A stretch of 64,000 nt of DNA from Sulfurimonas denitrificans DSM 1251 (GCF_000012965.1 NC_007575.1:248001-312000); one strand, 5' to 3'; numbered from the stretch's first letter, positions 14,552-36,610 are shown. Made by a program: numbers and translations. The notes: generated by a model from the letters alone, not told the origin.

Positions 14552-15232
14552 ATGTTAGAAACCCTCAAAGATAAAAGTATCTTGTTTTTAGAAGACAATC
14601 TTGAATTTGCACAAAATACAATTGTTCTGCTCAATATTTTTATAAAAACTATTTATCATGTAGTTACAATAAGCCAAGCCAAAGCTATTTTAAAATCACG
14701 ACATGTAGATATTATCATCTGCGATATTAAGCTTAAAAATGAGAATGGTCTTGATTTTATAAAAGAGATTCGTTCATCCGATTTGTTAACTCCTATCATG
14801 ATTATTAGCGGGCATAAAGATGAGTCGTTTTTGTTTCGTGCGATTCCGCTGTATCTCTCAGCCTATCTTTTAAAACCCATAAAATACGAGGAACTAATCG
14901 AAGCGTTGCAGATATGTAGTGAAAAAATCATAATAAATTCCAAAGAAAAAATCAATCTCAAAGATGGCTGGTGTTTTGACACAAAGCTCTGTATTTTGAA
15001 AAAAGATGAAGAGGAGTATGCTCTAAATAAAAAAGAGGCTCAATTTATGAAACTCATAGCTTACAATAGTGAGCGGCTCATCACAAAAGAGATGCTACAT
15101 GAGAGCGTTTGGGAGTTTGAAGATATGAGCGATTCTGCAGTGACAAACTTTATGCTTCGCATAAGAAGACGCTTTGGCAAAAATTTTATCTACACAATTC
15201 CAGACTTAGGATTTCGTTTTAATATTCATTAG
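14552..15232 (+). CDS. OmpR/PhoB-family response regulator
   Basis: 226 residues: receiver domain with acidic pair in FLEDN, phospho-acceptor Asp58 (IIICDIKL) and Lys108 (LLKPIK), then a winged-helix DNA-binding domain (about 145-226; NKKEAQFMKLIAYNSERLITKEML, TNFMLRIRRRFG). Its natural partner is the sensor kinase encoded convergently, whose 3' end overlaps this gene by 27 bp. The 11-bp-spaced GCGAT repeats in three promoters of this neighbourhood are the obvious candidate binding sites, including one in front of this gene, which implies autoregulation. Confidence 0.88.
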   Translation: MLETLKDKSILFLEDNLEFAQNTIVLLNIFIKTIYHVVTISQAKAILKSRHVDIIICDIKLKNENGLDFIKEIRSSDLLTPIMIISGHKDESFLFRAIPLYLSAYLLKPIKYEELIEALQICSEKIIINSKEKINLKDGWCFDTKLCILKKDEEEYALNKKEAQFMKLIAYNSERLITKEMLHESVWEFEDMSDSAVTNFMLRIRRRFGKNFIYTIPDLGFRFNIH

Positions 15233-18200
15233 CAAAATCGTTGCACAGATTCCATTTTCAAAGTTTTGCAGATGAAAAGTTTTCTCATACTTTGAAACTA
15301 TGTCATGGCACATGTTGATTCCTAGTCCATGATGTTTTTGCTCCATGTTCATACCTCCTCCATTATCACAAAAAGTAATTTTTTCATTTGTTACGTTGAT
15401 GGTTATTTTTGAAGTAGCAATTTTTCTCTCTATAAAGATTGCGATTGAGTTGTTGATGAGATTTAGCCATACCTGCATCCACTCGTTTTCTATGCCGTAA
15501 AGTAGGATGCCTTCATCTCCATTTATCTCCATAGTTACACTGTTGTCTATAAGTTTTGTCTCGATTATGGAGAGTGAAGCTTCTATAGATTTTAGAGCAG
15601 AGAAGTTGATTTTTGTTGTGCTTTTTTTGTAAAACATCAAAAAGTTTTGCATAGTTACAGACATAAAATCAATCGTTTTTTCTATCTCATCACTCTGCTT
15701 TAGCATAGTTTCATTATCTATCGGGATGCCATTTTTCAGCTTTGCAATAGTTATGAGATTTATAGAACTTAGTTTTGAGAGCGGTTCTCGCCACTGATGC
15801 GAGATTCCAGCTATTAGGTTGCCAATCTCAGCTTGTTTACTCTTTTGAAATAACTGCTCCTTAATCTCAATATTTTTCGTAACCTCTTGTTTTACTTTTT
15901 TTCTCAAAAGAGTGTTCCATAGAGAGATAAGAGCTAAAACCATAAGGAGAAAGATTGTTCCATAAAATGCTGCCTTGAGTACTTTTTCATCAGATTCTTT
16001 TTGGAGTACTATAGCTGTGTGTTTGTTAACGATTTGTTCTTTTTCTTCGTCTGTTATACTGTGTATTCCCTTGTTGAGAATAGAGATTAATATAGGTTCG
16101 CTCTTAAGCACACCTATAGAAAATATATTTTCGTAGTTGTTTGGTTGACCTGCTATTTTGAGATTAAAAAGACCCTCTTTTCTAATGGCATTTGCAGAGA
16201 CAATCAAAGAACGGATAGTCATATCTGCTTTTTTTTGTGAAACCATCGACATAGACTCTTCTTCAGTTTTTGCTGAAATTATCTTTAGGGATGGAAAATC
16301 TTTTCTAAGACGCTCCTCTAACATAGTTCCCTGAGGCAAAGCAACTGTTTCGTTATGAACTTCACTTAAATTTACAACATAAGGGTGATCCTCTCGCGTA
16401 ATAATAACATTGGGGTCGGATAAAAGCGTGTCACTAAAAATAAGCCACTGTTCTCTTTGTGGTGTTTGATTGAGAAAGCTCAAAATATCACACTTATTTG
16501 TTTTAGATAATTCTAAAGACTCTTCCCATGTCGCAGTCTTAATCAGTTTTATAGCAACTCCTGTTCGCTCAGAAACAAGACGAATCAAATCAGCTGCAAT
16601 TCCCTGATGAACCCCTTTTTCATCTATGCTCTCAAACGGTTCCCACTCAGGATCAACACACATGGTAATCTCTTTTTTCTCACTTAGATACTGCTTTTGA
16701 GCAATAGAGAGTGAAACCTGTTTTGGCACACGATAGAGTGCATCATTGATGATTGTATTATTAATTTTTATCTCTTCTTGAGAGCGGATATATTCTATGG
16801 ATTTTTGCATGATGCTTTGCAAAAGAGGGTAGTCTGAGCGAATAAGAGCATAAATTTTAAAATCATAGTCATCAATTTGTGTTGTGAGCAGATTTGAGTT
16901 ATTGTATCTCAAGATACCATAATCAACCACTGCCAAATTATCTATGACAGCATCAATTTTACGATGAGATAAAAGGCTGAGTGCTTTATCGACTGACTCT
17001 GTTTCATAAATTTTGGCGTTTTTAAAGTGTTGGTATATAAACTCCATAGCCGTTCCCCCTGATGCCATGGCGATTTTTTTTGATTCAAGAGAGTTGAGTG
17101 TGGTGTATGGATTATCACGCAAAGAAGCAATACCTAGTGAAACTTGCATAAAAGGTCCCGCAAAGAGTGCATATTCGCCCCTTGCATCTGTTTTTCCTGT
17201 TCCATCAATCATATCAATCTTTTTCTCTTTTAGCGCATCGAGAACGAGTTGAAAGTTCTCTGCGTTGCCTATTTGCACAAAAGAGAATTTCAATCCAGAT
17301 ACTTTTTGTATCTCATCATAATACTCTTTAAAAACACCACTATTGTTTCCACCACTTATGCTAGAAAATGGTTCCCACTGCACATCACTCAAGAGTATTT
17401 CTGGGTGTTTTAAAATAAACTCTCGCTCTTGCTCTGAAAATGAAATCTGTGGTTTTTTTACTTGATACACAAAACTTTTAAAATCTATCTTTTTTTCGAT
17501 TAAGCCCATGCTGCTGTAGTAGTCATAAATCTTCTCTATTTTTGTCATATCTAGCTGACCCAACTCTGCACCGTTGGCGTAGGCGAGTTTTTTTAGAACA
17601 GCAGCTTCATAAAGAAGGGCTTCTTTGGATTTGTTTTGAGAATTGTATTTTTCTAAAATGAGTGCAACTGTTTCTTCAATATTCTCAAAAGCATATCGCC
17701 ACCCTTTTAATGATGCCTGTGTAAAAGCTTCTACACGCTGTGGGTTGTTGTTCATCTCCTCTTGGCTTGTAAAGAGTATGTCGCTATAAACATCTAGACC
17801 ATAATCTTTGGGATCAAAAATAGTATATTTAACCCCTTTTTGTTCCAGTAAAAAAGGCTCATTTGAGAGATAAGCAGCCATCAAATCTGTTTTATGGTTT
17901 ATCAAATCATTGATGTCAAATGAGTTTTTTTGCACAACTATATTGCCAGTTGGAACATTTTTTTTATTTATCATGGCTCTTAGTCCAAGGTCTGAGACAA
18001 CATCATCGCTAAGCATAATTCGTTTGCCAACAAAGTCTTTTACAGTGCTGATATTTGAATCTTTTGTTGTTACAAAGACGGATGCGGAGGATTGGAGGAT
18101 GGATGCTAAGAGCACAACACTTTTACCGTTGCTCTTCTCAATAATAAGATTTGATCTTCCAACTCCGTAAGTAGCACTGCCTGAGAGGATGCTCTTTATT

Positions 18201-18403
18201 GGGAGTATCGAGTTCTCAAATTTTAGTAAACTAACATCTAGTCCAGCATCTTCATAGAAGCCTTTTTCTTTTGCAACATAATACCCAGCAAACTGAAACT
18301 GATCAAACCATTGAAGCTGAAGTGAGACTTTTTGAAGTTGCTCAGAATAAAGAGAGGAGAGAGTTGCTAGAGTAATAAAGAGTAATCTGAAAATAAATTG
18401 CAT
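15206..18403 (-). CDS. Sensor histidine kinase with NMT1-like and two SBP-type sensor domains
   Basis: 1,065 residues. A signal peptide (about 1-20) is followed by an NMT1/THI5-like domain (VSLQLQWFDQFQFAGYYVAKEKGFYEDAGL), then two family-3 solute-binding-type modules (about 335-555, DVQWEPFSSISG; about 570-800, CVDPEWEPFESI), a transmembrane helix near 815-838, and a kinase core with His near 871 in GISHQWREP and a G box GGGMNMEQKHHGLGINM. The layout recalls BvgS-type kinases but with an extra NMT1 module, so it probably senses a small organic or amine-like ligand in the periplasm (inference). It lacks REC and HPt domains, so direct transfer to the convergent regulator is likely. Confidence 0.85.
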   Translation of the reverse strand: MQFIFRLLFITLATLSSLYSEQLQKVSLQLQWFDQFQFAGYYVAKEKGFYEDAGLDVSLLKFENSILPIKSILSGSATYGVGRSNLIIEKSNGKSVVLLASILQSSASVFVTTKDSNISTVKDFVGKRIMLSDDVVSDLGLRAMINKKNVPTGNIVVQKNSFDINDLINHKTDLMAAYLSNEPFLLEQKGVKYTIFDPKDYGLDVYSDILFTSQEEMNNNPQRVEAFTQASLKGWRYAFENIEETVALILEKYNSQNKSKEALLYEAAVLKKLAYANGAELGQLDMTKIEKIYDYYSSMGLIEKKIDFKSFVYQVKKPQISFSEQEREFILKHPEILLSDVQWEPFSSISGGNNSGVFKEYYDEIQKVSGLKFSFVQIGNAENFQLVLDALKEKKIDMIDGTGKTDARGEYALFAGPFMQVSLGIASLRDNPYTTLNSLESKKIAMASGGTAMEFIYQHFKNAKIYETESVDKALSLLSHRKIDAVIDNLAVVDYGILRYNNSNLLTTQIDDYDFKIYALIRSDYPLLQSIMQKSIEYIRSQEEIKINNTIINDALYRVPKQVSLSIAQKQYLSEKKEITMCVDPEWEPFESIDEKGVHQGIAADLIRLVSERTGVAIKLIKTATWEESLELSKTNKCDILSFLNQTPQREQWLIFSDTLLSDPNVIITREDHPYVVNLSEVHNETVALPQGTMLEERLRKDFPSLKIISAKTEEESMSMVSQKKADMTIRSLIVSANAIRKEGLFNLKIAGQPNNYENIFSIGVLKSEPILISILNKGIHSITDEEKEQIVNKHTAIVLQKESDEKVLKAAFYGTIFLLMVLALISLWNTLLRKKVKQEVTKNIEIKEQLFQKSKQAEIGNLIAGISHQWREPLSKLSSINLITIAKLKNGIPIDNETMLKQSDEIEKTIDFMSVTMQNFLMFYKKSTTKINFSALKSIEASLSIIETKLIDNSVTMEINGDEGILLYGIENEWMQVWLNLINNSIAIFIERKIATSKITINVTNEKITFCDNGGGMNMEQKHHGLGINMCHDIVSKYEKTFHLQNFENGICATILLMNIKTKS

Positions 18404-22522: not shown

Positions 22523-23730
22523 GTCTATTATCATACGAAACAAGTCAAACAATGCTCTCTCTCTTACATGTAAACTCATCAAGAAGTCAGAATGTTCCAC
22601 TTAGCGCATCTCTTGGTAGAGTTCTAAGCGAAGATATAATAGCAAAACATAATGACCCAGAGTTCCCAACAGCTTCTATGGATGGCTATGCAGTTATGCA
22701 CTCCGATTTGGAGCTTGGCAAAATTGCCGTTGTTGGTTATAACCCCGCTGGAAGCGATGAACAACGTACTATTAAGAGCACAGAGTGTATTAAAACTTTT
22801 ACAGGCTCTATGATGCCTCATGGCGCAGATACGCTTATTCAGATAGAGAATGTTACACTTGAAGATGGAGCAATCATCATCAATGAAAGTGTTCCTAAAG
22901 GCTCATCTGTTCGCCCAATTGGCGAAGGTTACAGAGCTGGTGATGTACTGATTCAAAAAGGTACAAAGATAGGTTTTGCAGAGATTGGCGTTATGGCGGC
23001 ACTAAATCATGTTATGGTAAAAGTAGCTCTTAAGCCACGAGTTGCAGTTATTTCAACTGGAAGTGAAATTTTAGATTTGGGCGAACATAGCGATAACCCT
23101 TCACAGATAAGAAGCTCAAACAACTACACATTAGCCGCTCTCTTTGAACAAGCTGGAGCAGAGGTGATTCAGCTAGGAACAGTCGGGGATGATAAAAGTC
23201 TCATTATGCAGACATTCCAAGATGCACTATTAAGCGCTGACATTGTCGTCAGCACTGGTGGCGTTAGCGTTGGAGATTATGATTTTGTAAAAGATATAGT
23301 GCCTCGTATTGGAGCTGAAGTTCTTTTTAAGGGTGTGGCTATTAAGCCTGGAAAGCATATATTAGTTGCGCAAAAAGAGGATAAATTTATACTCTCTCTT
23401 CCAGGGTTTGCATACTCTTCAACTGTTACTGCAATTCTTTATGTACTTCCATTAATTGCAAAAATGTTAGGTAAAGAGAGTGCATATCGAATGGTAGCGG
23501 CAAAACTCAGCGAAGAGTTTAAAAAAAGAAGTCGTTTAACTGAGTTTACTGCATGTAACGTTGTAGTAGAAGATGGTGAATATTTTATAAACTTTAAAGA
23601 TAAAAAAGTAGGAAGTTCAGCAATTTTGACAAATATGTTAAATGAGTGCGCTCTTATGATTAGTGGCGAAGATGATGGAGATTTGCAAGAGGGCACTTTT
23701 GTAAATGTTATTCTTATCCAAAATTTCTGA
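22519..23730 (+). CDS. moeA: Molybdopterin molybdenumtransferase MoeA
   Basis: 403 residues, normal length. MoeA inserts molybdate into adenylylated molybdopterin. Signatures: PTASMDGYAVM, TGSMMPHGADTLIQIEN, PRVAVISTGSEIL, the MoCF-domain STGGVSVGDYDFVKD and IKPGKHILVA, and a C-terminal beta-barrel domain. It is the last gene of the Mo-cofactor operon; its stop codon is immediately followed by the operator of the next, separately regulated operon. Confidence 0.92.
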   Translation: MSLLSYETSQTMLSLLHVNSSRSQNVPLSASLGRVLSEDIIAKHNDPEFPTASMDGYAVMHSDLELGKIAVVGYNPAGSDEQRTIKSTECIKTFTGSMMPHGADTLIQIENVTLEDGAIIINESVPKGSSVRPIGEGYRAGDVLIQKGTKIGFAEIGVMAALNHVMVKVALKPRVAVISTGSEILDLGEHSDNPSQIRSSNNYTLAALFEQAGAEVIQLGTVGDDKSLIMQTFQDALLSADIVVSTGGVSVGDYDFVKDIVPRIGAEVLFKGVAIKPGKHILVAQKEDKFILSLPGFAYSSTVTAILYVLPLIAKMLGKESAYRMVAAKLSEEFKKRSRLTEFTACNVVVEDGEYFINFKDKKVGSSAILTNMLNECALMISGEDDGDLQEGTFVNVILIQNF

Positions 23731-23763
23731 TTTTACACATATTTTACACTTAAGGGCTATGCT
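23731..23763 (+). promoter_or_regulatory. Direct-repeat promoter of the DsrE/sensor/regulator operon
   Basis: TTTTACA at 23731-23737 and 23742-23748 form an 11-bp-period direct repeat; 9 bp later is a -10-like TATGCT (23758-23763). The arrangement and flanking bases (GATTTTACA, then CTT after the second repeat) match the element upstream of soxX. This is the geometry of OmpR-family activators, and the operon encodes one. Confidence 0.65.
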
Positions 23764-23796
23764 TTAGTTTTAGAAAATTTTTATAAAGAGGTTAAG

Positions 23797-24261
23797 ATGA
23801 AAAAGTTGTTTCTGATTTTAGTTGTTTTGTTAGGACTAGCTAGAGCGGATAGCGATGTGAAAAAAGCAGTTTTTGATCTTACAACACCAGATATTGCAAG
23901 GTTTGAAACAAGGTTGATAAAAGGAGTGGCATTTAACAATGCACACTATCAAACTAATTTTAAAGAGCTAGATATTGTAGTCATTATACATGGAGATGCT
24001 TATAAGTTTTTTGTAAAAGATCTCTCAAAAACAGAGTGTAAAAAAGATAAAGAGCTTGAGCCAAAAGCTAAAGATATACACCAAAGACTCTCTTCTCTTG
24101 TAAAAACATACAATGTAAAATTTTTAATGTGTGGCGCTGGAATGAAAGCAAGAAATATCTCTAAGGAGAATGTTTTAGAGTTTGTCGAAGTAACGCCAAG
24201 TGCTATAGTTGGGCTTATAGATGCACAAAATGATGGTTATGCATATATTCCCATCAATTAG
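23797..24261 (+). CDS. Periplasmic DsrE-like protein
   Basis: 154 residues: signal peptide (1-17, ending ARA), then a DsrE/F-like alpha/beta fold (DIVVIIHGDAYKFFVKD, NVKFLMCGAGMKARNIS, VTPSAIVGLIDAQNDGYAYIPI). The single-domain form with Cys in MCGAGM resembles periplasmic DsrE-like proteins next to sulfur-oxidation genes; the cysteine might bind sulfane sulfur, but a catalytic role is not demonstrated. First gene of the operon carrying the sensor and two-component genes; AAAGAGG precedes the ATG. Confidence 0.7.
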   Translation: MKKLFLILVVLLGLARADSDVKKAVFDLTTPDIARFETRLIKGVAFNNAHYQTNFKELDIVVIIHGDAYKFFVKDLSKTECKKDKELEPKAKDIHQRLSSLVKTYNVKFLMCGAGMKARNISKENVLEFVEVTPSAIVGLIDAQNDGYAYIPIN

Positions 24262-24279
24262 GAAGTTGTTTAATTTTAC

Positions 24280-25374
24280 ATGTTAAAAAAAACACTCCCG
24301 ATATTTTTGTTTGTAGTAGCTCTAATAATCTACATACTGCTATCTCTTAGGTATGCCATAGATAAACAAAATGTCAGTTACATTCTAGATAAGTTTGTCT
24401 TAGCCTTGGAGTCTGAGATAAAAAATAAGAAGATGGATGAGCTAAAGATGGCAATAATGCTCTCTAGAAATAGCGCTCTAGTAGATGCTCTAGAGAATGA
24501 AGATGAACATCTTGGATATAAGATACTCTCTGGAATCACAAAAGAGATAAAAAACTTTACACAGATAGATATAAAAGTTCAGATACTCACTCCCGATTAT
24601 CATATCTTTGCAAGAAGTTGGGATGATATATATACGGGTATGCCACTTGAGGATTACAGAAGCGATCTTCAATATTTCAGCACACATAAAACTCCTCGCT
24701 CTTCCATTGAGACTGGGCGCTTGCTCAGCATAAAAACAACAGTTCCCATTTATAGAGGCGAGACTCTTTTAGGCTTTGTAGAGATTATTAGTTTTTTTGA
24801 TTCTATAACAGATTTTTTCAAAAAAATAGGTGTTGATTTTTATGTGCTTATGGATGATAAGTACTATGATATAGCTGTCTTTATGCAAAATAATGAGACG
24901 GTTGATAGATACATAGTAGCAAACAGAAACTATAACCACAACAATTTAGCTCTTCTTAGAAGAGTTGATTTTAAAGAGCTTAAAATTAACAGAAGCATCA
25001 CTCTCGATGATAGCTATCTCTTTTATGAAAATATGAAAAATGGAGATTCTGAATCAATTGGAATGTTTGTGTTTGTATTAAATAAGAAATATCTTGAATA
25101 TTTTAAAGAGCAAAATGATGAAACCTCATTTTTTATAAATATTACCAAAAAAGCTCTATATGATGTTGTAAAACATGAGCAAGCAGATGCAACAATCAAA
25201 GAGTTTACAGATATAAAATCACTGCTTTACATGAAAGACGGAGTGCCTTTGGATATGCAAAGTGACTATATAGAACTTGGATATGAAAAACTAAATCACT
25301 ATACAAAAGATGAGCTTATACAGCTTATACTTGGACAAAAAATCATAAAAAAAGTGGATGGAAAGATAAAATGA
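24280..25374 (+). CDS. Stand-alone membrane Cache sensor protein
   Basis: 364 residues. N-terminal transmembrane helix (about 5-24), then a large extracytoplasmic Cache-like domain (helix 30-90; core VQILTPDYHIFARSWDD, GRLLSIKTTVPIYRGETLLGFVEI) and a C-terminal region without HAMP, kinase, GGDEF or chemoreceptor domain. It therefore has no output of its own and probably modulates the kinase two genes downstream. Stop overlaps the response-regulator start (ATGA-type, 4 bp), so production is coupled. Confidence 0.7.
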   Translation: MLKKTLPIFLFVVALIIYILLSLRYAIDKQNVSYILDKFVLALESEIKNKKMDELKMAIMLSRNSALVDALENEDEHLGYKILSGITKEIKNFTQIDIKVQILTPDYHIFARSWDDIYTGMPLEDYRSDLQYFSTHKTPRSSIETGRLLSIKTTVPIYRGETLLGFVEIISFFDSITDFFKKIGVDFYVLMDDKYYDIAVFMQNNETVDRYIVANRNYNHNNLALLRRVDFKELKINRSITLDDSYLFYENMKNGDSESIGMFVFVLNKKYLEYFKEQNDETSFFINITKKALYDVVKHEQADATIKEFTDIKSLLYMKDGVPLDMQSDYIELGYEKLNHYTKDELIQLILGQKIIKKVDGKIK

Positions 25375-26024
25375 GAGTTTTACTATTAGAAGATGAGTTC
25401 TCGCTAAGAATAAGTATAAAAGAGTTTTTAGAAGATATAGATTACAGCGTTGATGATTTTGCTGATGGGCTTGAGGCTCATGATGCTATATATGCAAAAT
25501 CTTACGATTTGCTACTTCTAGATATAAATGTACCATCCATGAGTGGTTTTGAACTTTTACAAAGTATCCGAAAAGATGGAATTAAAATTCCAGCCATATT
25601 TTTAACTTCTATGACAGAGCTTCAAGGTTTAAAAGAGGGTTATAGAAAAGGGTGTTGTGATTACATACGCAAACCATTTGACCTCTTAGAGTTAGAGCTT
25701 AGAATAAAACAAGCCATAAGAAGTTACTATCTTGATAATAGCGATATGGTAGAGCTTGGCGAGGGTTTTGTGTATGACATGTTAAAGGGAAAACTAACTA
25801 AAGATGATAAAGAGATAGTTTTAAGAAAGATAGAAAAAGATCTCTTAGAGATGCTTATAAAAAATAAAAACAGTGTTGTCTCTATGCAGATGTTTCAAGA
25901 TGAAGTTTGGGGAGATTATGTAGAGCCCTCAGCTATCCGTGTTCAGATAAATAACTTAAAACAGAAGCTCTCAGAGACAATCATACATAACAGAAGAGGC
26001 TTAGGATATATAATTGAGAGATAA
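25371..26024 (+). CDS. OmpR/PhoB-family response regulator (candidate sox regulator)
   Basis: 217 residues: receiver with LLLEDE, phospho-acceptor Asp51 (LLLLDINVPSMSG) and Lys101 (YIRKPFD), then winged-helix domain (about 125-217; EPSAIRVQINNLKQKL). The 11-bp-spaced TTTTAYA repeats in its own operon promoter and before soxX are the likely binding sites (inference from geometry and co-location). Overlaps genes on both sides. Confidence 0.88.
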   Translation: MRVLLLEDEFSLRISIKEFLEDIDYSVDDFADGLEAHDAIYAKSYDLLLLDINVPSMSGFELLQSIRKDGIKIPAIFLTSMTELQGLKEGYRKGCCDYIRKPFDLLELELRIKQAIRSYYLDNSDMVELGEGFVYDMLKGKLTKDDKEIVLRKIEKDLLEMLIKNKNSVVSMQMFQDEVWGDYVEPSAIRVQINNLKQKLSETIIHNRRGLGYIIER

Positions 26025-27183
26025 AAGTTATGCCCTAACATACGCATATATCTATACTATTTTAGTTGCAATAATACTTCTTACCCCTCTGTTTATCTAC
26101 ACATCATATATAAAAAAAATACAAGATATAAAAAATGAGTATGAGTTGAAAAATAGAGCTCATCTCATAGTAAAGCTTATGCAAGAACATAATTCAGAAA
26201 AAGATTATTTTGAATATCCTAGATTTAAAACGTTTAAATCTGGACTTTATGATAGCAGACTTCAAGAGATATTTTCACTAATTCAAGAGCCGATAAAACA
26301 CTTTAGAGAGGGTTATCATATAGATGGCAGTAGAGCGTACTATGTTATGGTGCTTCCTGAGGAGAGATATTTTGGAGCAAAATATATTGTTGTAGAGAAT
26401 CAGCTCTCGTACTATGAGGTTTACGAAAAGGCTCTGCTTATACTTCTATCCATCGTTACATGTATATTTTTACTAAGCATACTATTTTTAGATAGGTTTG
26501 CAAAACCCTTTAAAGAGGTAAATAAAAAACTAGATGAGTTTATAAAAGATTCCATTCATGAGATTAACACTCCTCTTGCTATCATAAATGTAAACGTGGA
26601 TTTATATGGTAGAAAATATGGCAAAAATAAGTACATGCAGAGGATTAAAGCTTCTACAAAAGTTCTCTCAAATATTTATAACGACATGGAGTATCTTACA
26701 AAAAACAATAAGTTAGAGATAAAAAGAGAAAAAATTGATATAAAGAAGTTTTTGGATGAGCGCATTGAGTACTTTAGCGAGATAGCGCTTATGAAAAATA
26801 TCTCTATTTTAAGTGATATGAAAAATGAGGTATTTATAAATATGGATGTAAAGCAGCTTCAAAGAATAGTTGATAATAATATATCAAATGCTATAAAGTA
26901 CTCTTATGAGCAAAATATCATAGAGGTAAATACAGATATAAATGAGGAGGGGGAGTATCTCCTCTCATTTAGGGATTATGGCATTGGGATAGACAATGTA
27001 GAGAGAATATTTGAACGCTACTACAGAGAGAGCAGACAAGTCGGTGGTTTTGGAATAGGCTTAAATATAGTTGGAGCCATTATAAAAAAAGAGAATATCG
27101 ATGTTAGTGTAGAATCAGAACTTAAAAAAGGGACGACATTTACATATAAATTCCCAAAAAACCTCATTTCCATAAAGAATTAG
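26014..27183 (+). CDS. Sensor histidine kinase
   Basis: 389 residues: transmembrane helices at about 11-30 and 140-160 bracket a short periplasmic domain of about 110 residues. There is no clear HAMP; the H box is DSIHEINTPLAII (His182), followed by N box DNNISNAIKYS and G boxes GIGIDN and GGFGIGLNIVG. Starts at TTG 26014, overlapping the regulator by 11 bp; no other start is available before the first helix. The small sensor domain and the neighbouring Cache protein suggest sensing is shared between two proteins. Confidence 0.85.
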   Translation: MRDKSYALTYAYIYTILVAIILLTPLFIYTSYIKKIQDIKNEYELKNRAHLIVKLMQEHNSEKDYFEYPRFKTFKSGLYDSRLQEIFSLIQEPIKHFREGYHIDGSRAYYVMVLPEERYFGAKYIVVENQLSYYEVYEKALLILLSIVTCIFLLSILFLDRFAKPFKEVNKKLDEFIKDSIHEINTPLAIINVNVDLYGRKYGKNKYMQRIKASTKVLSNIYNDMEYLTKNNKLEIKREKIDIKKFLDERIEYFSEIALMKNISILSDMKNEVFINMDVKQLQRIVDNNISNAIKYSYEQNIIEVNTDINEEGEYLLSFRDYGIGIDNVERIFERYYRESRQVGGFGIGLNIVGAIIKKENIDVSVESELKKGTTFTYKFPKNLISIKN

Positions 27184-27208
27184 CCACATCTTTAATATTT
27201 AAAATAGA

Positions 27209-27241
27209 TTTTACATAAATTTTATACTTCACTGTTAAACT
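27209..27241 (+). promoter_or_regulatory. Direct-repeat promoter of the sox operon
   Basis: TTTTACA (27209-27215) and TTTTATA (27220-27226) repeat with 11-bp period, and TAAACT (27236-27241) follows after 9 bp. Preceding GA, following CTT, and all spacings equal those of the element at 23731-23763. The soxX start codon is 33 bp downstream of the -10 box. Confidence 0.65.
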
Positions 27242-27273: not shown

Positions 27274-27798
27274 ATGAAGAGAAGTTTGACTTTGTCACTG
27301 CTTTTAGGGATGAGTGTTTTTGCTGCTGATTATAGTAGTGTAATTGAAGTTCCTGATGCGCAAAAGATAATTCAAAAAGATTTACTGCCACCTCTTGGTG
27401 TAAATAAGATGCCAACAGAATGTATAACTACAGACTCAAAAGCCATTGCTAGAGGAGCGTATATATTTCACAATTTAAACGGTGAAAATGCAAAAGGGAA
27501 TGCTCCTGAGGGTTTAAGTAAAACAGTTGAAAATGGCAAGCCAAAACAGTATGGAAATTGTGTTGCATGTCATAATATAGAAGGCGCTGTAGGCGGTGGA
27601 AATATTGGACCAGATTTAACCAACTACACAGAGATGTTTGTAAAAACAGGTGTTAGAGATGCACAATATGTATATGCAAAAATTGCAGACCCAAGAGTTG
27701 ATAATCCTCATACAGATATGACGGTAAATTTAACTACAAAACTATTCAATGAAAAAGAGATATGTGAATTAGCTTCATATGTCTTATCAAAAAAATAA
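27274..27798 (+). CDS. soxX: SoxX, c-type cytochrome of the sulfur-oxidation complex
   Basis: About 174 residues from ATG 27274, which has AAAGGAG 7 bp upstream. Signal peptide, then a mono-haem cytochrome c with CVACH in a GNCVACHNIEG context and a GPDLTNY loop. With SoxA it forms the SoxXA enzyme that oxidatively conjugates thiosulfate to SoxY. First gene of soxXYZAB. Confidence 0.93.
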   Translation: MKRSLTLSLLLGMSVFAADYSSVIEVPDAQKIIQKDLLPPLGVNKMPTECITTDSKAIARGAYIFHNLNGENAKGNAPEGLSKTVENGKPKQYGNCVACHNIEGAVGGGNIGPDLTNYTEMFVKTGVRDAQYVYAKIADPRVDNPHTDMTVNLTTKLFNEKEICELASYVLSKK

Positions 27799-27814: not shown

Positions 27815-28282
27815 ATGAAAAGAAGAGATTTTTTAAAGAACTTAAGCTTAAGTGCTGCAACTGTAGCAGTTATTCCAACAATGAGCTTTGCAGCAGATGA
27901 CAAGCCAAAAGCCTCAAATGCGCTTGCTTACAAAGATGCATTAGCGGCTATTACAGGTGGAAAGACTCCAGAACCATCTGAGAAAGTTTCACTTAAAGTG
28001 CCTGAAATTGCGGAAAATGGGGCTGTTGTTCCAGTAACAGTTGAGATAGATTATCCTATGACTGATAGTGATTATGTAAAAGCTATTCATATATTTGCTG
28101 CTAAAAATGGAAACTCTCGTTGTATTGATGCACATTTATCACCTGCAAATGGTAAAGCTATGTTATCAACTCGTGTAAAACTAGGCGAAACTCAAGAAGT
28201 AATAGCATTAGCAGAGTTAAGTAATGGAAATTTCCTTATCGCTTCACAAAGTGTTAAAGTAACAATCGGCGGATGCGGTTGA
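27815..28282 (+). CDS. soxY: SoxY, sulfur-carrier subunit
   Basis: 155 residues with a Tat-type signal (RRDFLKNL) and Ig-like fold, ending in the mobile VTIGGCG arm whose cysteine carries the sulfur intermediate. It heterodimerises with SoxZ in the periplasm. The GGCG terminus is intact. Good AAAGGA ribosome-binding site 8 bp upstream. Confidence 0.95.
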   Translation: MKRRDFLKNLSLSAATVAVIPTMSFAADDKPKASNALAYKDALAAITGGKTPEPSEKVSLKVPEIAENGAVVPVTVEIDYPMTDSDYVKAIHIFAAKNGNSRCIDAHLSPANGKAMLSTRVKLGETQEVIALAELSNGNFLIASQSVKVTIGGCG

Positions 28283-28334: not shown

Positions 28335-28670
28335 ATGTCAAAAAGTAAAACATTAATTAAAATCAAGCCAAATACTTATAAAAATGGCGACGTGGTAAAA
28401 GTTAGTTTCATGGTTATGCACCCGATGGAGACTGGACTTAGAAAAGATAAAAAAACTGGTGAGGTAATACCTGCTGATTATATTAAAAGTGCGAAGTTTG
28501 AGTATAACGGCAAAGTGTTTACAACTATGAATATCTGGGAGACTCTATCTGTAAATCCTGTAATAACTACATATATGACAATAGATGGGGCAGGGAGTTT
28601 AAAAGTTACATTTACAGATAGCAAAGGTACTGTTGAAGAGAGCAGTGAAGAGATTAAACCAAAAGGATAA
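28335..28670 (+). CDS. soxZ: SoxZ, SoxY partner
   Basis: 111 residues, usual length, with SoxZ hallmarks VKVSFMVMHPMETGLRKD and an Ig-like C-terminal half. It lacks its own signal peptide and is normally co-exported with SoxY by the Tat pathway. Lies 52 bp after soxY. Confidence 0.94.
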   Translation: MSKSKTLIKIKPNTYKNGDVVKVSFMVMHPMETGLRKDKKTGEVIPADYIKSAKFEYNGKVFTTMNIWETLSVNPVITTYMTIDGAGSLKVTFTDSKGTVEESSEEIKPKG

Positions 28671-28673
28671 GTG

Positions 28674-29444
28674 ATGAGAAAAGTACTACAAATAGCGTTG
28701 AGTGTTCTTGTTGCTTCATCATTAGCTTATGGTAGCGAACAATTTTCTATGAGTGACGCTGATAGAGCTTTATATGAGGAGTTATTAGACAATAACCCAG
28801 CAGATATGATGTTGGCTTCTGGTTCAGAACACTTAGATGCACTTGGAGGAGCGGCGAGTTTAGCTAAGTATTTAGAGCAAAGTGAAGATTCTCTTGCATC
28901 TTATTTGGCAGGGTTTCCAAGATATATAGATAAGTACAAATCAGTTGTAAGCATAGACCAGATGCTTCAAGCATTTATGCACGATAGCGGTGCTAAAGCA
29001 TATACGCTAAAGAGTGAAGAGATGTTTAACATGTCATCTTATGTAAAATCACTCGGCAATGAGCAAGCTATCAACATTGATATAAATGCAAACAAGTATA
29101 TGCAAGAGGCTTATGCACTTGGTAAAGAGGTTTTTAACACTCGCAGAGGCGGTAGAGGTTTGTCATGTTATAACTGTCATAACAGTAATGTTATTGGTGC
29201 AGTTTTAAGAACACAGCCACTTCCTGATATCTCTGCAAAAGGAAATGCTTCAGCTGCAACGTGGCCAGCATATAGAATGACAAAATCAAAGCTTGCAACT
29301 CTTCAAAAGAGATTCCAAGGTTGTATGGAAAATGCACTATTAGCTGTGATTCCACTTGGTTCAAAAGAGATGACGGCACTTGAAGTTTACTTCACTCACG
29401 AAGCAAAAGGTGCTCCAATAGCTATTCCAGGTTTAAAGAGATAA
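28674..29444 (+). CDS. soxA: SoxA, mono-haem type cytochrome
   Basis: 256 residues from ATG 28674 (GTG at 28671 is also possible). Signal peptide, an N-terminal domain with no cysteine at all, then the C-terminal active-site haem CYNCH and, further on, the axial Cys in RFQGCMENA that becomes a persulfide during catalysis. It is thus a single-haem SoxA whose N-terminal haem site has been lost, as in some other bacteria. Forms SoxXA with the SoxX cytochrome. Confidence 0.93.
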   Translation: MRKVLQIALSVLVASSLAYGSEQFSMSDADRALYEELLDNNPADMMLASGSEHLDALGGAASLAKYLEQSEDSLASYLAGFPRYIDKYKSVVSIDQMLQAFMHDSGAKAYTLKSEEMFNMSSYVKSLGNEQAINIDINANKYMQEAYALGKEVFNTRRGGRGLSCYNCHNSNVIGAVLRTQPLPDISAKGNASAATWPAYRMTKSKLATLQKRFQGCMENALLAVIPLGSKEMTALEVYFTHEAKGAPIAIPGLKR

Positions 29445-29454
29445 GGGAGATTAG

Positions 29455-31218
29455 ATGGAAGTTTCAAGAAGAGATTTTATGCATATCTGTGCTATTTTTG
29501 GCATAGGTATGGCAACAATATCTAGTGCTGCACCAAGAGGTGCGGCTCAGATTTCATTAAAAGATATATTTAGTTTTAAAGATACTGGTAACTTTACACT
29601 ACTTCACATGTGTGATTTACATGCACATTTAAAACCACTGTTTTGGAGAGAGCCATCAACTCTGATTTCTGCTCCAAATTTAGTTGGAACACCTGGCTTT
29701 TTATGTGGTGATGCTTTTGCAAAACATTATGGGCTTGAGCCAAGTAGCTTAGATGCTTACTTTGACACTCATATAGATTTTGAATCTTTGGCTAAGAAGT
29801 TTGGAAAAATGGGCGGAGTTGCTCATATTAAAACAGTTTTAGATCATGTTAGAAAAACAAGAGGAGCAGATAATGTTCTCTTCCTTGACTCTGGCGATAC
29901 ATGGCAAGGAACAGGAGTTGCACTAAAGAGTAATGGCGAAGCGATAGTTAAAGCACAAAATTATCTTGGTGTTGATGTAATGGTTGGACATTGGGAATTT
30001 ACTTATGGCAAGAAACGTGTAAAAGAGTTAATAGGGATGCTTGATGCAAAATTCATCTCTCAAAATATTATTGGAGATGACTCTTTTTCTGATGAATTTG
30101 AAGAGCTAATTTTTGAACCATACACCATAGAAGAGAGAGGTGGTGCTAAGATAGGTATCATTGGACAGTCATTCCCTTTTACTTCAACTGCAAACCCTAA
30201 AGAGTTTACACAAGGATGGAGTTTTGGTCTGCGCTTAGAGTCTCTTCAAGAGTATGTTAATGAGCTAAAAGATGAGCACAAAGTTGATTGTGTAGTTCTT
30301 TTATCTCATGATGGTTTTAGTGTTGATCAAGAGGTAGCGAGAAAAGTTCAAGGAATTGATTTTATTCTTAGCGGACATACTCATGACCCTTCTCCAATGC
30401 CTATTGTTATTGATGGGACTGTTATTGTTATAGCGGGAAGTCATGGAAAATATATAGGTCGTTTAGATATTGATGCAAAAAATGGTAAGGTTAATAACTA
30501 TGAGTATAAACTTATCCCTATAGCTTCAAATATTATTCCAGCTGATCCAGCGGGAGTAAAACTTGTAGATGAACTTTATGCTCCATACGCAGCAGAGATG
30601 AGTGAAGTTTTAGGTAAAACTAAAAATATTCTCTATAAAAGAGATACTTTTTTCTCAACCTTTGATCAGCTCATAAATGATGCTATCTTAGATGAGATGA
30701 AGTGTGATATCTCTTTTACACCTGGTTATAGATGGGGAACAACTGTTTTAGCAGGTGAAAATATTTTAATGGATAACGTTTATGAGATGTGTGGAATAAC
30801 ATATCCAAATGTCTATACTTTTGAGTTAGAAGGCAATAAAATTGCTAAGTTGCTAGAGGATATCGCAGATAATGTCTTTAATGAAAATCCACTCTATCAA
30901 CAAGGTGGAGATATGAGCCGTTTGGGTGGAGCTACTTATGACATTACTGTTGGTAATCCAAATGGTAAGCGTATTACAAACCTTAAGATTGGTGGCAAAA
31001 ATATTGATCTTAAGAAAATATATATCGTATCTTCATGGGGTGGAAACCTGCAAAATGCTGGTAGCAACCTTCAAAAAGCAAAGACTAGAGCAGTTTATGA
31101 TGTTGTTAGAGACTACATAAAACGCAAAAAAGTCGTGGATGTTAGCAATAAAGGCAATGTAAAATTGGTTGATTTTGATTGTGGGTGCCCTACTAAAGGG
31201 TCAAGAAGTTGCGATTAA
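29455..31218 (+). CDS. soxB: SoxB, thiosulfohydrolase
   Basis: 587 residues with Tat-type signal (SRRDFM). A two-manganese metallophosphatase-like enzyme that hydrolytically releases sulfate from SoxYZ-bound S-sulfonate. Metal-site motifs: HMCDLHAHL, LDSGDTWQG, the SoxB-specific VGHWEFTYG, LSHDGFSVDQ and SGHTHDPSP; a C-terminal 5'-nucleotidase-like domain follows (DTFFSTFDQLINDAILDEM). No soxCD lies in this cluster. Confidence 0.95.
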   Translation: MEVSRRDFMHICAIFGIGMATISSAAPRGAAQISLKDIFSFKDTGNFTLLHMCDLHAHLKPLFWREPSTLISAPNLVGTPGFLCGDAFAKHYGLEPSSLDAYFDTHIDFESLAKKFGKMGGVAHIKTVLDHVRKTRGADNVLFLDSGDTWQGTGVALKSNGEAIVKAQNYLGVDVMVGHWEFTYGKKRVKELIGMLDAKFISQNIIGDDSFSDEFEELIFEPYTIEERGGAKIGIIGQSFPFTSTANPKEFTQGWSFGLRLESLQEYVNELKDEHKVDCVVLLSHDGFSVDQEVARKVQGIDFILSGHTHDPSPMPIVIDGTVIVIAGSHGKYIGRLDIDAKNGKVNNYEYKLIPIASNIIPADPAGVKLVDELYAPYAAEMSEVLGKTKNILYKRDTFFSTFDQLINDAILDEMKCDISFTPGYRWGTTVLAGENILMDNVYEMCGITYPNVYTFELEGNKIAKLLEDIADNVFNENPLYQQGGDMSRLGGATYDITVGNPNGKRITNLKIGGKNIDLKKIYIVSSWGGNLQNAGSNLQKAKTRAVYDVVRDYIKRKKVVDVSNKGNVKLVDFDCGCPTKGSRSCD

Positions 31219-31248: not shown

Positions 31249-32730
31249 ATGAAATTACTTAAGATAAGTGCAGTAACTGCGCTGGTATGTTTAATGACAA
31301 CAGCATTAAGTGCAGAGGAAGTAAAACCAAAGAGAACACTACAGGGTAATATGAACGAGGTGTATAACACACTTCCAAAAAGCGCAAATAACCTTAGTGA
31401 GGCTTTTACAGAGGGTATGTTTTATGGTCGCTTAAGAACAAACGCTTTTAGATGGGATTTTAGAAATGATGACAATGGAGATAACAAAGCATTCGGTTTA
31501 GGCGGCAGCTTAATCTATAAAACAGCACCGCTTGCAGGCTTAAGTGCAACGGCGGGACTTTACTACTCAAACAGCCCAATCTCTAACTGGAGACAAAATG
31601 ATAGTGATGTAGGTGAAGTTAAATCTGGTAAAGATACATTTAGCAGATATGATGTTAGAGCTGATGGCGATTGGGAGATGGTAGTTTTAGCTCAAGCTTA
31701 CTTGCAATACAATATCTCAAAAACAGACTTTAAACTAGGTCGTCAAATTTTTGAATCAGCACTAACTGCATCTAATGATACAAAGATGATTCCAAATACT
31801 TTTGAAGGTATAAGTGTAGAGTCTAAAGATTTGCCAAAAACAACTCTAAAAGCGGCATACTTTACAGCTCAAAAACTTCGTGACCATACTACTTTTCATG
31901 ATGTTTTGACATTTAAAGACTCTTCTGGTGATTCATGGAACAATAATGACGACTCAGGTATTCACCAAGGTTTAACTTATGCAAGACTACAAGCAGCAAA
32001 TAAAGATACAAGCAATGAGCTAATAGTAGCAGCTATTAGTAATAAGTCTATAGAAAACTTAAAAGTGGATGCAACATATACAGCAGTTCCAGATATGCTC
32101 TCTAGTGTTATAGGAGAGTTAAACTATGATATCCCACTTGGTGGTGTTACAATTACTCCAGGTGTTCGTTATATGGAACAGTTTGATAATGGAGCAGGTG
32201 CAATTGGTGGAGCAAGTTTAGCTGGAAATGTTACCGATGCTAATGCTGCTTCAAGAGGATATAAGAGCGGAAATTCTCTTGATACATCTCTTTGGATGGC
32301 TCGTTTAGTGGCATCTGCTGGAGCTTTTAAAGGGCATATTGGATACTCAAAAGTAGAAGATAAAGCGGACATCGTAGCACCTTGGCGTGGATTCCCAACA
32401 GGTGGATACACTCGTGCAATGGCACAGGTGAACTGGAAAGCAGATGCTGAGACTATAATGGTTGAAGGAAAATATGACTTTGGCAAAGCAAAAATCTTAG
32501 ATGGTTTTAGCGCAATGGGTCGTTATGCTATTCAAAATTCTGATGAGAAAAAACAAGCATCAGGCGGACAAGCTGACTTAAGCATTATTCATATAGATTT
32601 AGTGCAAAAGCTTACACCTACTTTAGATGCAAAAATACGTCTTGCATTTATAGATGCTGATGAACGTACTTCAGGTGTAAACAAAGACTCATATAACGAA
32701 TATCGTTTTGAGATAAACTACCTTTTTTAA
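31249..32730 (+). CDS. OprD-like outer-membrane porin
   Basis: 493 residues: signal peptide ending LSA-EE, then amphipathic beta strands through to the terminal aromatic YRFEINYLF, typical of outer-membrane barrels. The AFTEGMFYGRLRTNAFRWDF segment matches OprD-family porins common in Campylobacterota. It follows soxB by 30 bp and is presumably co-transcribed, suggesting passage of thiosulfate, sulfate or another small anion (inference). Confidence 0.8.
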   Translation: MKLLKISAVTALVCLMTTALSAEEVKPKRTLQGNMNEVYNTLPKSANNLSEAFTEGMFYGRLRTNAFRWDFRNDDNGDNKAFGLGGSLIYKTAPLAGLSATAGLYYSNSPISNWRQNDSDVGEVKSGKDTFSRYDVRADGDWEMVVLAQAYLQYNISKTDFKLGRQIFESALTASNDTKMIPNTFEGISVESKDLPKTTLKAAYFTAQKLRDHTTFHDVLTFKDSSGDSWNNNDDSGIHQGLTYARLQAANKDTSNELIVAAISNKSIENLKVDATYTAVPDMLSSVIGELNYDIPLGGVTITPGVRYMEQFDNGAGAIGGASLAGNVTDANAASRGYKSGNSLDTSLWMARLVASAGAFKGHIGYSKVEDKADIVAPWRGFPTGGYTRAMAQVNWKADAETIMVEGKYDFGKAKILDGFSAMGRYAIQNSDEKKQASGGQADLSIIHIDLVQKLTPTLDAKIRLAFIDADERTSGVNKDSYNEYRFEINYLF

Positions 32731-32815: not shown

Positions 32816-33193
32816 ATGAAAAAAGTTATTGTATCTCTTGTTTTTTGTGTTAGTTTACTTTTTTCTGCAGAGTTTTATACTTATGAAGAAGCGTTAGAGA
32901 TACAAAAAACAAGCTCCAAAATCATAATGATTGATGTTGTTAGAGATAATTGCAGATACTGCATTTTAATGGACAAACTTTTAGAAGATAGAGAGTTTAG
33001 CAGTTGGATTGCTGAGCGTTTTATTCCTGTAAAAATTAACATCGAACATGACAAAATAGATCTTAAATTAGATGTAAAAATGACTCCTACTTTTTATTTT
33101 TTGGACAAAAACCAAAAAATTTTAAAGATGATACCAGGCTCTTGGAGTAAAGAAGATTTTAAAGATCTAACTAAAAATATCAAAGGGGAGTAA
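32816..33193 (+). CDS. Periplasmic thioredoxin-fold protein (SoxW-like)
   Basis: 125 residues with a signal peptide and a thioredoxin fold: redox motif CRYC in RDNCRYCILMDKLL and a cis-proline MTPTFYFLD. Similar periplasmic thioredoxins accompany sox genes (SoxW, SoxS), where they keep SoxY cysteine reduced. The assignment as SoxW rests on context; a general DsbE-like role is possible. Confidence 0.75.
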   Translation: MKKVIVSLVFCVSLLFSAEFYTYEEALEIQKTSSKIIMIDVVRDNCRYCILMDKLLEDREFSSWIAERFIPVKINIEHDKIDLKLDVKMTPTFYFLDKNQKILKMIPGSWSKEDFKDLTKNIKGE

Positions 33194-33194
33194 C

Positions 33195-33629
33195 ATGAAA
33201 CTTTATGCTCTTGTATTTTTGATGTTTAGCCTCCTTTTGCATGCAGATACTGTTTTTGCACAACCAGAGCCTAGCATCACTGAACCTAGACAAATTATCT
33301 TTTCTATAAAAAGCGCAAACGATGAAGAGATAAATCATGTTTTAAGTAGTGCAAACAATGTACTAAAATTTTATGGACCTGAAAATGTTCAGATGAGAAT
33401 AGTTGCCTATTACCACGGGATAAAAGCTCTTTTAAAAACCAATAAAGATATTGCTCTTAGAGTAAAAGCTCTTATGCTTCTTGATGTTGAGTTTTATGCA
33501 TGTGGCAATACAATGAGAACCAAAAATATCAAAAAAGAAGAACTTCTTGAAGATACACTAATAGTTACTGCTGGAATCGTAGAGATTACAGAGCGAGTAA
33601 AAGAGGGATGGATATATATCGTTCCATAA
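33195..33629 (+). CDS. Second periplasmic DsrE-like protein
   Basis: 144 residues with signal peptide (about 1-22) and a DsrE-like fold (RQIIFSIKSANDEEINHVL, VQMRIVAYYHGIKALLK, ACGNTMRTKNIKKEEL, GWIYIVP). Its single cysteine is in YACGNT, the same relative site as Cys in the DsrE-like protein at 23797, suggesting paralogues bracketing the sox locus. Starts 1 bp after the thioredoxin gene. Confidence 0.7.
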   Translation: MKLYALVFLMFSLLLHADTVFAQPEPSITEPRQIIFSIKSANDEEINHVLSSANNVLKFYGPENVQMRIVAYYHGIKALLKTNKDIALRVKALMLLDVEFYACGNTMRTKNIKKEELLEDTLIVTAGIVEITERVKEGWIYIVP

Positions 33630-33650: not shown

Positions 33651-34556
33651 ATGAAAAAAATATATGTTTTTATAGTGGCGATTTTAATGGCGTCAATAGT
33701 GAGTGCAAGTGGTGATTTACACCTTTTTGAAGTTGAAAATAAAAATGGTGCAATAACACCGCAAAAAATCGAAGAAGCGTTTGTAAAAGATGGGTTTGGC
33801 ATAGCAGTAAATAGCGATATGATAAAGCCCTTTATGATTCAGTTTAAAGAGACAAAGTTCAAAATTTTTACTCTTATGACAATATATCATGAGCAGACAT
33901 CTTTTGATCTTGTAAAAAAATATCCAGTTGCTGGAGTATTTACTCCACTTGGTGTTGGAATATATCAAGATAAAGCAGAAAATACACTACATGTAAGTAT
34001 TTTAACATCAGCTTCTCTTAGTAAAATAATGGGTATTGAAGATGAACTCATCAAAAAACTTGAGAGTCAAGTTCTTGCAACCCTTAAAAAAGTTCTTCCA
34101 ACTGCAAAGTATAAGCTTAGCCAAGAGCCGCTCTCTGAGAGCAGAGAGCTTCTTACAAGATATGAGTTAGAAGTAGATGGTGATGATGTAAAAACTGCTA
34201 AAGAGAATGTTCTCTTAGGTCTTGATAATGGGCTTAGCCTTTATGGTTTTATAGTTGCTGGCAAGTTAGATTTAAACAAGCACATGAAAGATTCGCCTTA
34301 TGATTTTTATGATGGCTACTCAATCTGCAAACTCCCTGTAATCTATACAGTTGCGTTGACAAAACCTGAAGCAGCGGCTTTTGCCCCATGTACTTTGGCT
34401 ATCTATAAGAAAAAAGATGAGAACAAGATTGTTCTGGAGTACCCATCAGTTTATAACTGGATAAGCAGCGCTCTTATAAAAGATAAAGATGGAGTAGATG
34501 TCTTATTAAAAGCTCAAGAGCAGTTTCAAGCTATCCTCTTAGAGATAGTAGAATAA
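33651..34556 (+). CDS. Periplasmic DUF302-like tandem-domain protein
   Basis: 301 residues with signal peptide (1-20). Two similar halves (about 25-155 and 165-300) contain hydrophobic strands and PVAGVFTPLGVGIYQDK / AAAFAPCTLAIYKKK at equivalent positions, a pattern of DUF302 proteins, which are common near sulfur-oxidation genes but of unproven function. Last gene of the sox-linked set; the assignment is moderate. Confidence 0.6.
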   Translation: MKKIYVFIVAILMASIVSASGDLHLFEVENKNGAITPQKIEEAFVKDGFGIAVNSDMIKPFMIQFKETKFKIFTLMTIYHEQTSFDLVKKYPVAGVFTPLGVGIYQDKAENTLHVSILTSASLSKIMGIEDELIKKLESQVLATLKKVLPTAKYKLSQEPLSESRELLTRYELEVDGDDVKTAKENVLLGLDNGLSLYGFIVAGKLDLNKHMKDSPYDFYDGYSICKLPVIYTVALTKPEAAAFAPCTLAIYKKKDENKIVLEYPSVYNWISSALIKDKDGVDVLLKAQEQFQAILLEIVE

Positions 34557-34618
34557 GCAACTAATAAGTGAAAATATGTGATAATTTCCGTTAAATTATT
34601 GATAATAAGAGGGTGTGT

Positions 34619-36610
34619 ATGACAATAGGAAAAAGAGTTACTATACTTGTTATAGGTATATCATTTGCACTCTTGGTTAGTAGCTTCTTTGTGCTTAATT
34701 ATTTTAAGGCTGCGATTGTACAAAATGTTTATAGTGATATGAGAAGTACACTTACGGCTAAGATAGAAGATAGAATGAATGCTAAGTTTGATATAGGCGT
34801 GACTAATGCAGTTGCCATGGCGAATAACTCTGACATAATCGCTTCACTTAAGAATAATGACAGAGCTTTGGCTGCAAAAACACTCGAATCCATTGGAGAC
34901 ACATATAAAGAACAGACAGATTTTAAAAATATTAAAATCCATATTCATGACAAAGATGTAAAGTCTTTTTTAAGAAATTGGCAAGTTGATAAGTTCGGCG
35001 ATGATTTATCTAGCTTTAGACACACAATCAATAAGGTCAAAGAGAGTAAAAAGTCGATGGCAGCGATTGAAGTTGGTAGAAACGGGCTTACTATTAGAGG
35101 ATTGGTTCCTGTTATAGCTGATAATAGCTATTTAGGCTCATTAGAGTTTATGCAGGGTTTTGAATCTGTAGTAAAGCAGTTTTTAAAAGAGAAAGAGTAC
35201 CTCTTAGTGCTTATGGATAACAAACTGCTAAATGTTGCAGACCTCTCAAATACAAAAAACAGAATCTCTAACTACACTCTTAGCCAAAAAACAATTGATG
35301 ATAAGTTTCTATTAGAAGCTAAAACTATTGATATGGAAGCTGTTCTCAGAGATGGATATTTTGTTGATAAGAACTATTTTTATACCTACACATATATAAA
35401 AGATTTTGAAAATAAACCTATCGGAATTTATCTTCTTGCAAAAGATAGACCTAGTATAGAAAAAGCGATAGATGGCGCAAGCAGTATTATAAACAGCGCA
35501 CTTTTGCTAGTTGCTTCTCTTATCTTTATCATAACAATTGCTATATTAGTTACTATCAAAAAAATAGTACTTAATCCTTTAAATGTTTTTCAAGAAGGGC
35601 TGTTGGAATTTTTTAAATACCTAAACAAACAGAGCAATAAAGCGGAACTCATAGCGATAGATACAAATGATGAAATCGGTAAGATGGCTAAGATTGTAAA
35701 TGAAAATATTCTAAAAACAAAAGAGAATATTGAGCTAGACCAAGATCTTATCAATGATGTAAAAAGAGTAGTTATGGAAGTAGAGAGAGGAAATCTTAAT
35801 CAAGAAGTAACTAAATCAACTCAAAATCAAGCTCTTTTTGAATTAAAAGATAGTTTAAATAAAATGCTCTACTCTTTAAAAAACAGTGTTGCAAAAGATA
35901 TAAATTCACTTGTGGCTGTTTTGGATAGTTTTAAAAATTCTGATTTTAGAGCTACTCTTGAGAATGATGAGGCAAAAGTGTCTCAAGCAATAAACAGTAT
36001 TGGGCAAACCATAAGAGATATGCTAAGAGATTCAAATACAAATGCGGATGAGCTTACACGAACTTCAGTGAGTCTTATTGAGAGAATGCAGACATTAGCA
36101 GAAGGCTCATATAAACAAGCATCAATGCTCAAAGATATCTCTAAAACAATGGAGTTAGCAAATAGTTCTGTTGTTGAAGTTTCACAGATGACAAAAGCTG
36201 TTGTAATAAAATCAACCGATATAAAATCAGTGGTAAATGTAATATCTGAAATTGCAGACCAGACAAATCTCCTAGCACTAAACGCTGCTATTGAAGCTGC
36301 ACGTGCAGGTGAACATGGGCGTGGATTTGCTGTTGTTGCTGATGAGGTTAGAAAACTTGCAGAAAATACACAACGAAGCCTTGATGATATAAATATAAAC
36401 ATAGAATCTCTTACTCAGGCAGTTGTTGATATAGGAACTACAATAGAGGAGCAGGTTAAAGATATAAATATGGCCACAGACTCTATTAAAGTTATAGATA
36501 AAACAACTCAAGAGCACGCTATACATACAAAAGAGATTGAAAATATTGCAATTAAACTAGATGAGATGTCTAAAAAAACACTTCAAAGTATAAGTACTAA
36601 AAAGTTCTAA
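34619..36610 (+). CDS. Methyl-accepting chemotaxis protein with Cache-type sensor
   Basis: 663 residues from ATG 34619. Transmembrane helix near 10-28, a large periplasmic helix-plus-Cache domain (to about 290), second helix near 292-315 ([20 protein letters not shown]), HAMP region, and a signalling hairpin with the invariant [20 protein letters not shown] tip. It would feed the CheA/CheW array. No CheR-binding pentapeptide at the C-terminus. Ligand unknown; position behind the sox locus hints at sulfur- or redox-related taxis (inference). Confidence 0.88.

Follow-up and report, generated by a model that had tools for sequence, protein, structure and literature searches.

Regulation of the sox genes is poorly characterised (PMC10318464, PMC10451225). 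Among the known regulators of sox operons, SoxR (ArsR family) and TTHA1953 (CsoR family) are one-component repressors with unrelated folds (PMC10318464, PMC10451225). In Acidithiobacillus caldus (sox-II), the two-component system TspS/TspR lies directly upstream of soxXYZA-B and has been proposed to sense thiosulfate, with TspR being sigma-54-dependent and acting at the palindromic upstream activating sequence TGTCCCAAATGGGACA (PMC6335251). Here we describe a two-component locus of Sulfurimonas denitrificans, found in a 64,000-nt stretch of DNA (the window) from a genome that is a single contig of 2,201,561 bp. Like TspS/TspR, it lies directly upstream of the sox operon, but its regulator is of the OmpR/PhoB type and its operator is a direct repeat followed by a sigma-70-like -10 box. 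Our analysis indicates that this regulator (25371-26024) probably activates soxXYZAB by binding two half-sites placed in tandem across the -35 region. A literature search, mostly without subscription papers, returned no description of this regulator system and nothing on soxXYZAB control in Campylobacterota.

PhoB likewise combines a Response_reg domain with a winged helix, and each of its PHO boxes consists of a pair of 11-nt direct repeats located ahead of the -10 box (PMC4415409). The present system differs from it in its half-site (TTTACA), in its recognition-helix residues (compared with an approximate PhoB sequence) and in its targets, which belong to sulfur oxidation. In the same phylum, DccRS and PhosSR of Campylobacter jejuni are two-component systems, and DccR is OmpR-like (PMC9449129). 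These two differ from the present system in their regulons, their half-sites and their host-associated species. Their reported boxes also have a period of about 11 bp. The system described here is of the OmpR/PhoB-type two-component kind already known, with an unusual solo Cache partner.

The genes follow one another along the + strand, with an operator at each end of the sensor genes (window positions):

23731..23748, + strand: operator 1, TTTTACA-CATA-TTTTACA, an 11-bp direct repeat upstream of the DsrE, Cache, regulator and kinase operon (sequence, profile and matrix)
23758..23763, + strand: -10-like box TATGCT, 9 bp past operator 1, spaced as in relatives' soxX promoters
23797..24261, + strand: DsrE/DsrF-family protein (PF02635), probably exported, first gene after operator 1; orthologues in other genera have the same operator
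24280..25374, + strand: dCache_3 sensor protein, membrane-anchored by one N-terminal hydrophobic segment, without a transmitter domain
25371..26024, + strand: OmpR/PhoB-type response regulator (Response_reg and Trans_reg_C)
26014..27183, + strand: histidine kinase (HisKA and HATPase_c) with a TTG start and two hydrophobic segments about 100 residues apart
27209..27226, + strand: operator 2, TTTTACA-TAAA-TTTTATA, an 11-bp direct repeat upstream of soxX (sequence, profile and matrix)
27236..27241, + strand: -10-like box TAAACT, 9 bp past operator 2 and 32 bp ahead of the soxX ATG
27274..27798, + strand: soxX, a cytochrome (TIGR04485 above cut-off)
27815..28282, + strand: soxY (TIGR04488 above cut-off)
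28335..28670, + strand: soxZ (TIGR04490 above cut-off)
28671..29444, + strand: soxA (TIGR04484 above cut-off)
29455..31218, + strand: soxB (TIGR04486 above cut-off)

The reading frames of the dCache_3, regulator and kinase genes overlap or are nearly contiguous, with the regulator gene overlapping both of its neighbours. With all five NCBIfam equivalogs above their cut-offs, the operon downstream is a SoxXYZAB thiosulfate-oxidation cluster. Promoter 1 reads GA-TTTTACA-CATA-TTTTACA-CTT-AAGGGC-TATGCT over 23729-23763; promoter 2 reads GA-TTTTACA-TAAA-TTTTATA-CTT-CACTGT-TAAACT over 27207-27241. Both share one layout, TTTACA-N5-TTTAYA with an 11-bp period, then CTT, and a -10 box of the form TAnnnT separated from the second repeat by exactly 9 bp, which is the arrangement that the initial annotation had described. 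It had also placed a Cache protein, an OmpR-type regulator and a kinase between the promoters; all three were found, but the DsrE gene had been overlooked.

We searched for the repeat in the window and in the whole genome. Without mismatch, TTTTAYA-N4-TTTTAYA occurs three times in the window, and TTTAYA-N5-TTTAYA-N9-TANNNT occurs three times in 2.2 Mb, namely at the two operators and at an AT-rich site at genome position 1495642. With a weight matrix trained on the soxX promoters of relatives, none of them from the S. denitrificans clade, operator 2 reached 37.1 bits and operator 1 reached 32.3 bits, while the next best site in the window reached 10.9. A calibrated profile of relatives' soxX promoters ranked operator 2 first (E 4.4e-7) and operator 1 second (E 1.1e-5) in the genome, with the third site at 0.12; operator 1 was absent from the training set of this profile and operator 2 or an identical copy was present, so that operator 2 is judged more fairly by the held-out matrix. 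The site at 1495642, near a hypB-like gene, and the site at 53550 both scored below 13 bits with the relatives' matrix and were rejected. The same matrix found no site of at least 13 bits at the second sox cluster of this genome, soxCDYZ. This agrees with the published finding that soxXYZAB and soxCDYZH are expressed separately in Sulfurimonas (PMC9122950).

The repeat is conserved far beyond this species. It was found, as TTTACA-N5-TTTACA with at most one mismatch, in all 69 soxX upstream regions and was perfect in 54, compared with 0.04 in shuffled sequences; alternative repeat spacings gave at most 4 perfect matches each in these regions. Among 63 distinct soxX promoters, both TTTA cores are invariant, the C and A that come next are almost so, and the spacer to the -10 box is nearly free in sequence and fixed in length in nearly all. 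Regulator orthologues occur throughout Campylobacterales, and the order Cache, regulator, kinase, soxXYZAB was seen in most sox loci fetched, in several families. Genomes in which sox and the regulator lie apart or on different contigs (L181, L179, L180, L183 and L186) keep the operator, so the association of operator and regulator is independent of linkage. In one distant genome (L177) with soxX but no orthologous regulator, the soxX promoter has no operator. In a scan of 200 family genomes, the strict pattern of the promoter was present in 83 of 98 that carry the regulator versus 14 of the 94 that lack both the regulator and sox, counts that are weakened by the phylogenetic non-independence of the two groups; the backward-pattern control gave 15 hits in these 200 genomes, and those without regulator and sox are near that rate. 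One perfect match that recurs in genomes lacking sox, TTTACAGC..TTTTACA.., was rejected as coding sequence (FTALLQLFGI): of three contigs examined, two span enough of the frame, and it is coding in both.

The genome is AT-rich, and loose one-mismatch matches genome-wide are no more frequent than in the backward control and uninformative, as would be expected if two AT-rich promoters merely resembled each other. We regard the probability of such a chance resemblance as negligible, since it is already refuted by conservation in the relatives' soxX regions, by the genome-wide profile, by the held-out matrix and by the association of regulator and site. The repeat search in other Campylobacterota sox promoters had been suggested as a check by the initial annotation, and the common OmpR-type operator and dedicated link to sox that it proposed are strongly supported by this comparative genomics.

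A second explanation is that the 11-bp repeat is nothing more than the periodic T-rich signal found instead of a -35 box in sigma-70 promoters of Campylobacterota, kept because soxX is strongly expressed. Promoters of C. jejuni lack a -35 box and have gnTAnaAT together with T-rich signals that recur near -17, -27 and -38 (PMC3847290); the last two of these positions are approximately where the TTT tracts of the present promoters lie. The following observations make this explanation very unlikely. Outside soxX (1.2 Mb), ACA follows both TTTs in 8 of 242 frames of the form TTTnnn-N5-TTTnnn-N9-TAnnnT, versus 53 of 71 in soxX upstream regions. Most of those 8 frames precede DUF302, cytochrome or DsrE genes. 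Only two promoters in the genome match the profile, and control genomes are near background. The repeat thus seems to be built on a generic promoter scaffold, with ACA, judging from the frame comparison, as the part specific to the regulator.

The regulator passes the PF00072 and PF00486 cut-offs and matches solved OmpR/PhoB-family regulators over its full length, and it falls short of the NCBIfam PhoB equivalog (TIGR02154, 98 bits versus a cut-off of 296). It is not of the TspR type, having only Response_reg and Trans_reg_C, no sigma-54 AAA+ domain, and a direct repeat as its element. The adjoining kinase, with HATPase_c above its cut-off and HisKA at 27.0 versus a listed cut-off of 26.9, is the candidate cognate kinase. 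In a phylogenetic tree, the sox-linked regulators, unlinked cases included, form a supported clade (99/95). Outside it lies a separate clade of Campylobacterales systems with the same three-gene architecture of Cache protein, regulator and kinase and the same TTTACA-N5-TTTACA element, which target CXXCH cytochromes rather than sox and lie beside multihaem c-type cytochrome operons. L069, L072, L074, L080, L081, L082 and others carry such paralogous systems, with the operator before the cytochrome genes. The recognition helix (RVQINNLRKKL-like) is conserved in sox-linked regulators and common to both clades, in agreement with their common half-site, and differs from that of another regulator in the window and from E. 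coli PhoB (an approximate query).

The shared helix, and the shared operator at multihaem cytochrome genes in other families, would also fit a paralogous OmpR-family regulator encoded elsewhere in the genome as the main binder, with the neighbouring regulator acting elsewhere. We give this little credence: the sox-linked regulators form their own supported clade and their presence tracks sox and the site, and the only two operator sites in this genome both flank the sox-linked regulator.

With the sox-linked regulator as the probable binder, we infer the following mechanism. The neighbouring kinase, probably aided by the membrane-anchored dCache protein, would detect a periplasmic sulfur compound, most likely thiosulfate, and this signal would lead to the phosphorylated regulator and to activation of soxXYZAB. 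The phosphorylated regulator would bind TTTACA-N5-TTTACA as a head-to-tail dimer, with half-sites one helical turn apart that cover the -35 region, a mode modelled on the tandem dimer binding of PhoB to 11-nt repeats (PMC4415409). Once bound, it would recruit RNA polymerase to the -10 box 9 bp downstream. In this species it would also activate the DsrE gene, with read-through into its own Cache, regulator and kinase genes. It is a plausible prediction that the signal is thiosulfate and that the regulator activates sox and does not repress it. The same regulator might act as a repressor relieved by thiosulfate, given that binding over the core promoter could exclude polymerase and that SoxR-type sox control in alphaproteobacteria is repression (PMC10318464). 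We consider this unlikely, as two half-sites ending 9 bp above the -10 box, without a good -35 hexamer, fit PhoB-like activation.

Several points weigh against activation of sox by its neighbouring regulator. Besides the non-independence of the genomes compared, L177 is a single case with a SoxX 44% identical, and the second half-site of operator 2 deviates once, with T in place of C. The pattern is partly that of an ordinary promoter, with its TTT tracts at -27 and -38. From sequence, the specificity also appears not to be unique to sox, as the cytochrome-linked paralogues have almost the same helix and operator.

The initial annotation had further called the system autoregulated, a reading supported for S. 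denitrificans and close relatives only. Ahead of the Cache, regulator and kinase genes in 65 relatives' loci, a site above 14 bits was found in only about 5, and autoregulation as a conserved feature was rejected. Where present, the second site accompanies a DsrE gene rather than the sensor genes. Members of the S. denitrificans clade have it upstream of DsrE, where it is strong in the window and moderate to weak in the rest of the clade, and so does L057; in L083 and G291 it precedes a DsrE gene that is divergent, and an unlinked DsrE orthologue about 30 kb from sox also has one upstream (G191, L151). The most likely role of operator 1 is therefore in a DsrE promoter from which transcription, in the S. 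denitrificans clade, may continue into the sensor genes, so that positive feedback is possible in this species and is not a general property. In L174/L220 (G291:C22), the regulator is cut after about 20 codons and fused directly to soxX, and the remaining regulator, the kinase and the soxX operator are missing; the divergent DsrE gene retains its operator. This is either a true deletion or an assembly artefact.

Further genes carry the operator at independent promoters in relatives, including those for DUF302 proteins, Sulf_transp (YeeE/YedE-type) proteins, a dCache chemoreceptor and a receiver-less OmpR-type DNA-binding protein. The genes with the operator form a coherent, putative periplasmic sulfur regulon, although lone sites in lone genomes may be chance. 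In L209 (G141:C1:1760000-1778000), 3,883-bp tandem repeats lie downstream of sox, and each contains a DUF302 gene preceded by an operator; two of the units agree at every one of the 3,883 bases, and a third diverges over part of its length. In L153/L213 (G126:C1:66429), a near-consensus operator (33.4 bits) accompanies an OmpR-type DNA-binding protein of 142 aa for which the winged helix was the only domain recognised, and whose gene is divergent from an efflux- and zinc-uptake-like cluster. Downstream of soxXYZAB, relatives often have a porin, a thioredoxin-like protein, a second DsrE and a DUF302 protein. The corresponding region of the window holds the following:

33195..33629, + strand: second DsrE-family protein, in the same conserved neighbourhood, with no operator of its own here
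33651..34556, + strand: DUF302 protein; an operator precedes its orthologues in several relatives and not this gene
34613..36610, + strand: chemoreceptor whose dCache_3 domain is a homologue of the solo Cache protein, with 25% identity across 219 residues

A simple scan found terminator-like hairpins at 31267-31283, past soxB, and at 32995-33017, near the thioredoxin-like gene. Elsewhere in the window (14552-18403), an OmpR-type regulator (14552-15232) is convergent with a 1,065-aa protein that resembles several substrate-binding domains fused to a kinase-like C-terminus.

The solo Cache protein, a putative co-sensor, has a single anchor at its N-terminus and lacks a transmitter. A PDB sequence search with it gave no match. 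A fold search with its AlphaFold2 model (mean pLDDT 83) gave weak matches to generic dCache sensors such as DctB and CitA, the DctB type being closest, and thus no ligand can be assigned to it. A more tentative and rather doubtful reading is an order-wide sulfur regulon with a three-part sensor, in which the solo dCache protein would read thiosulfate or a related sulfur anion and signal to the separate kinase, the ligand domain would be shared with the regulon chemoreceptor, and the operator would be reused by the sister cytochrome system.

Campylobacterota are major sulfur oxidisers at vents and redoxclines. As the coordinates of the conserved regulator and operator pair are exact and its list of targets is short, soxXYZAB control becomes directly testable, and the operator offers a genome-readable marker for the regulon. 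The pair would explain how soxXYZAB can switch separately from soxCDYZH. If the tentative reading of an order-wide regulon and a sister cytochrome system is right, sulfur oxidation, sulfur chemotaxis and cytochrome-based electron transfer would descend from one duplicated regulatory module.

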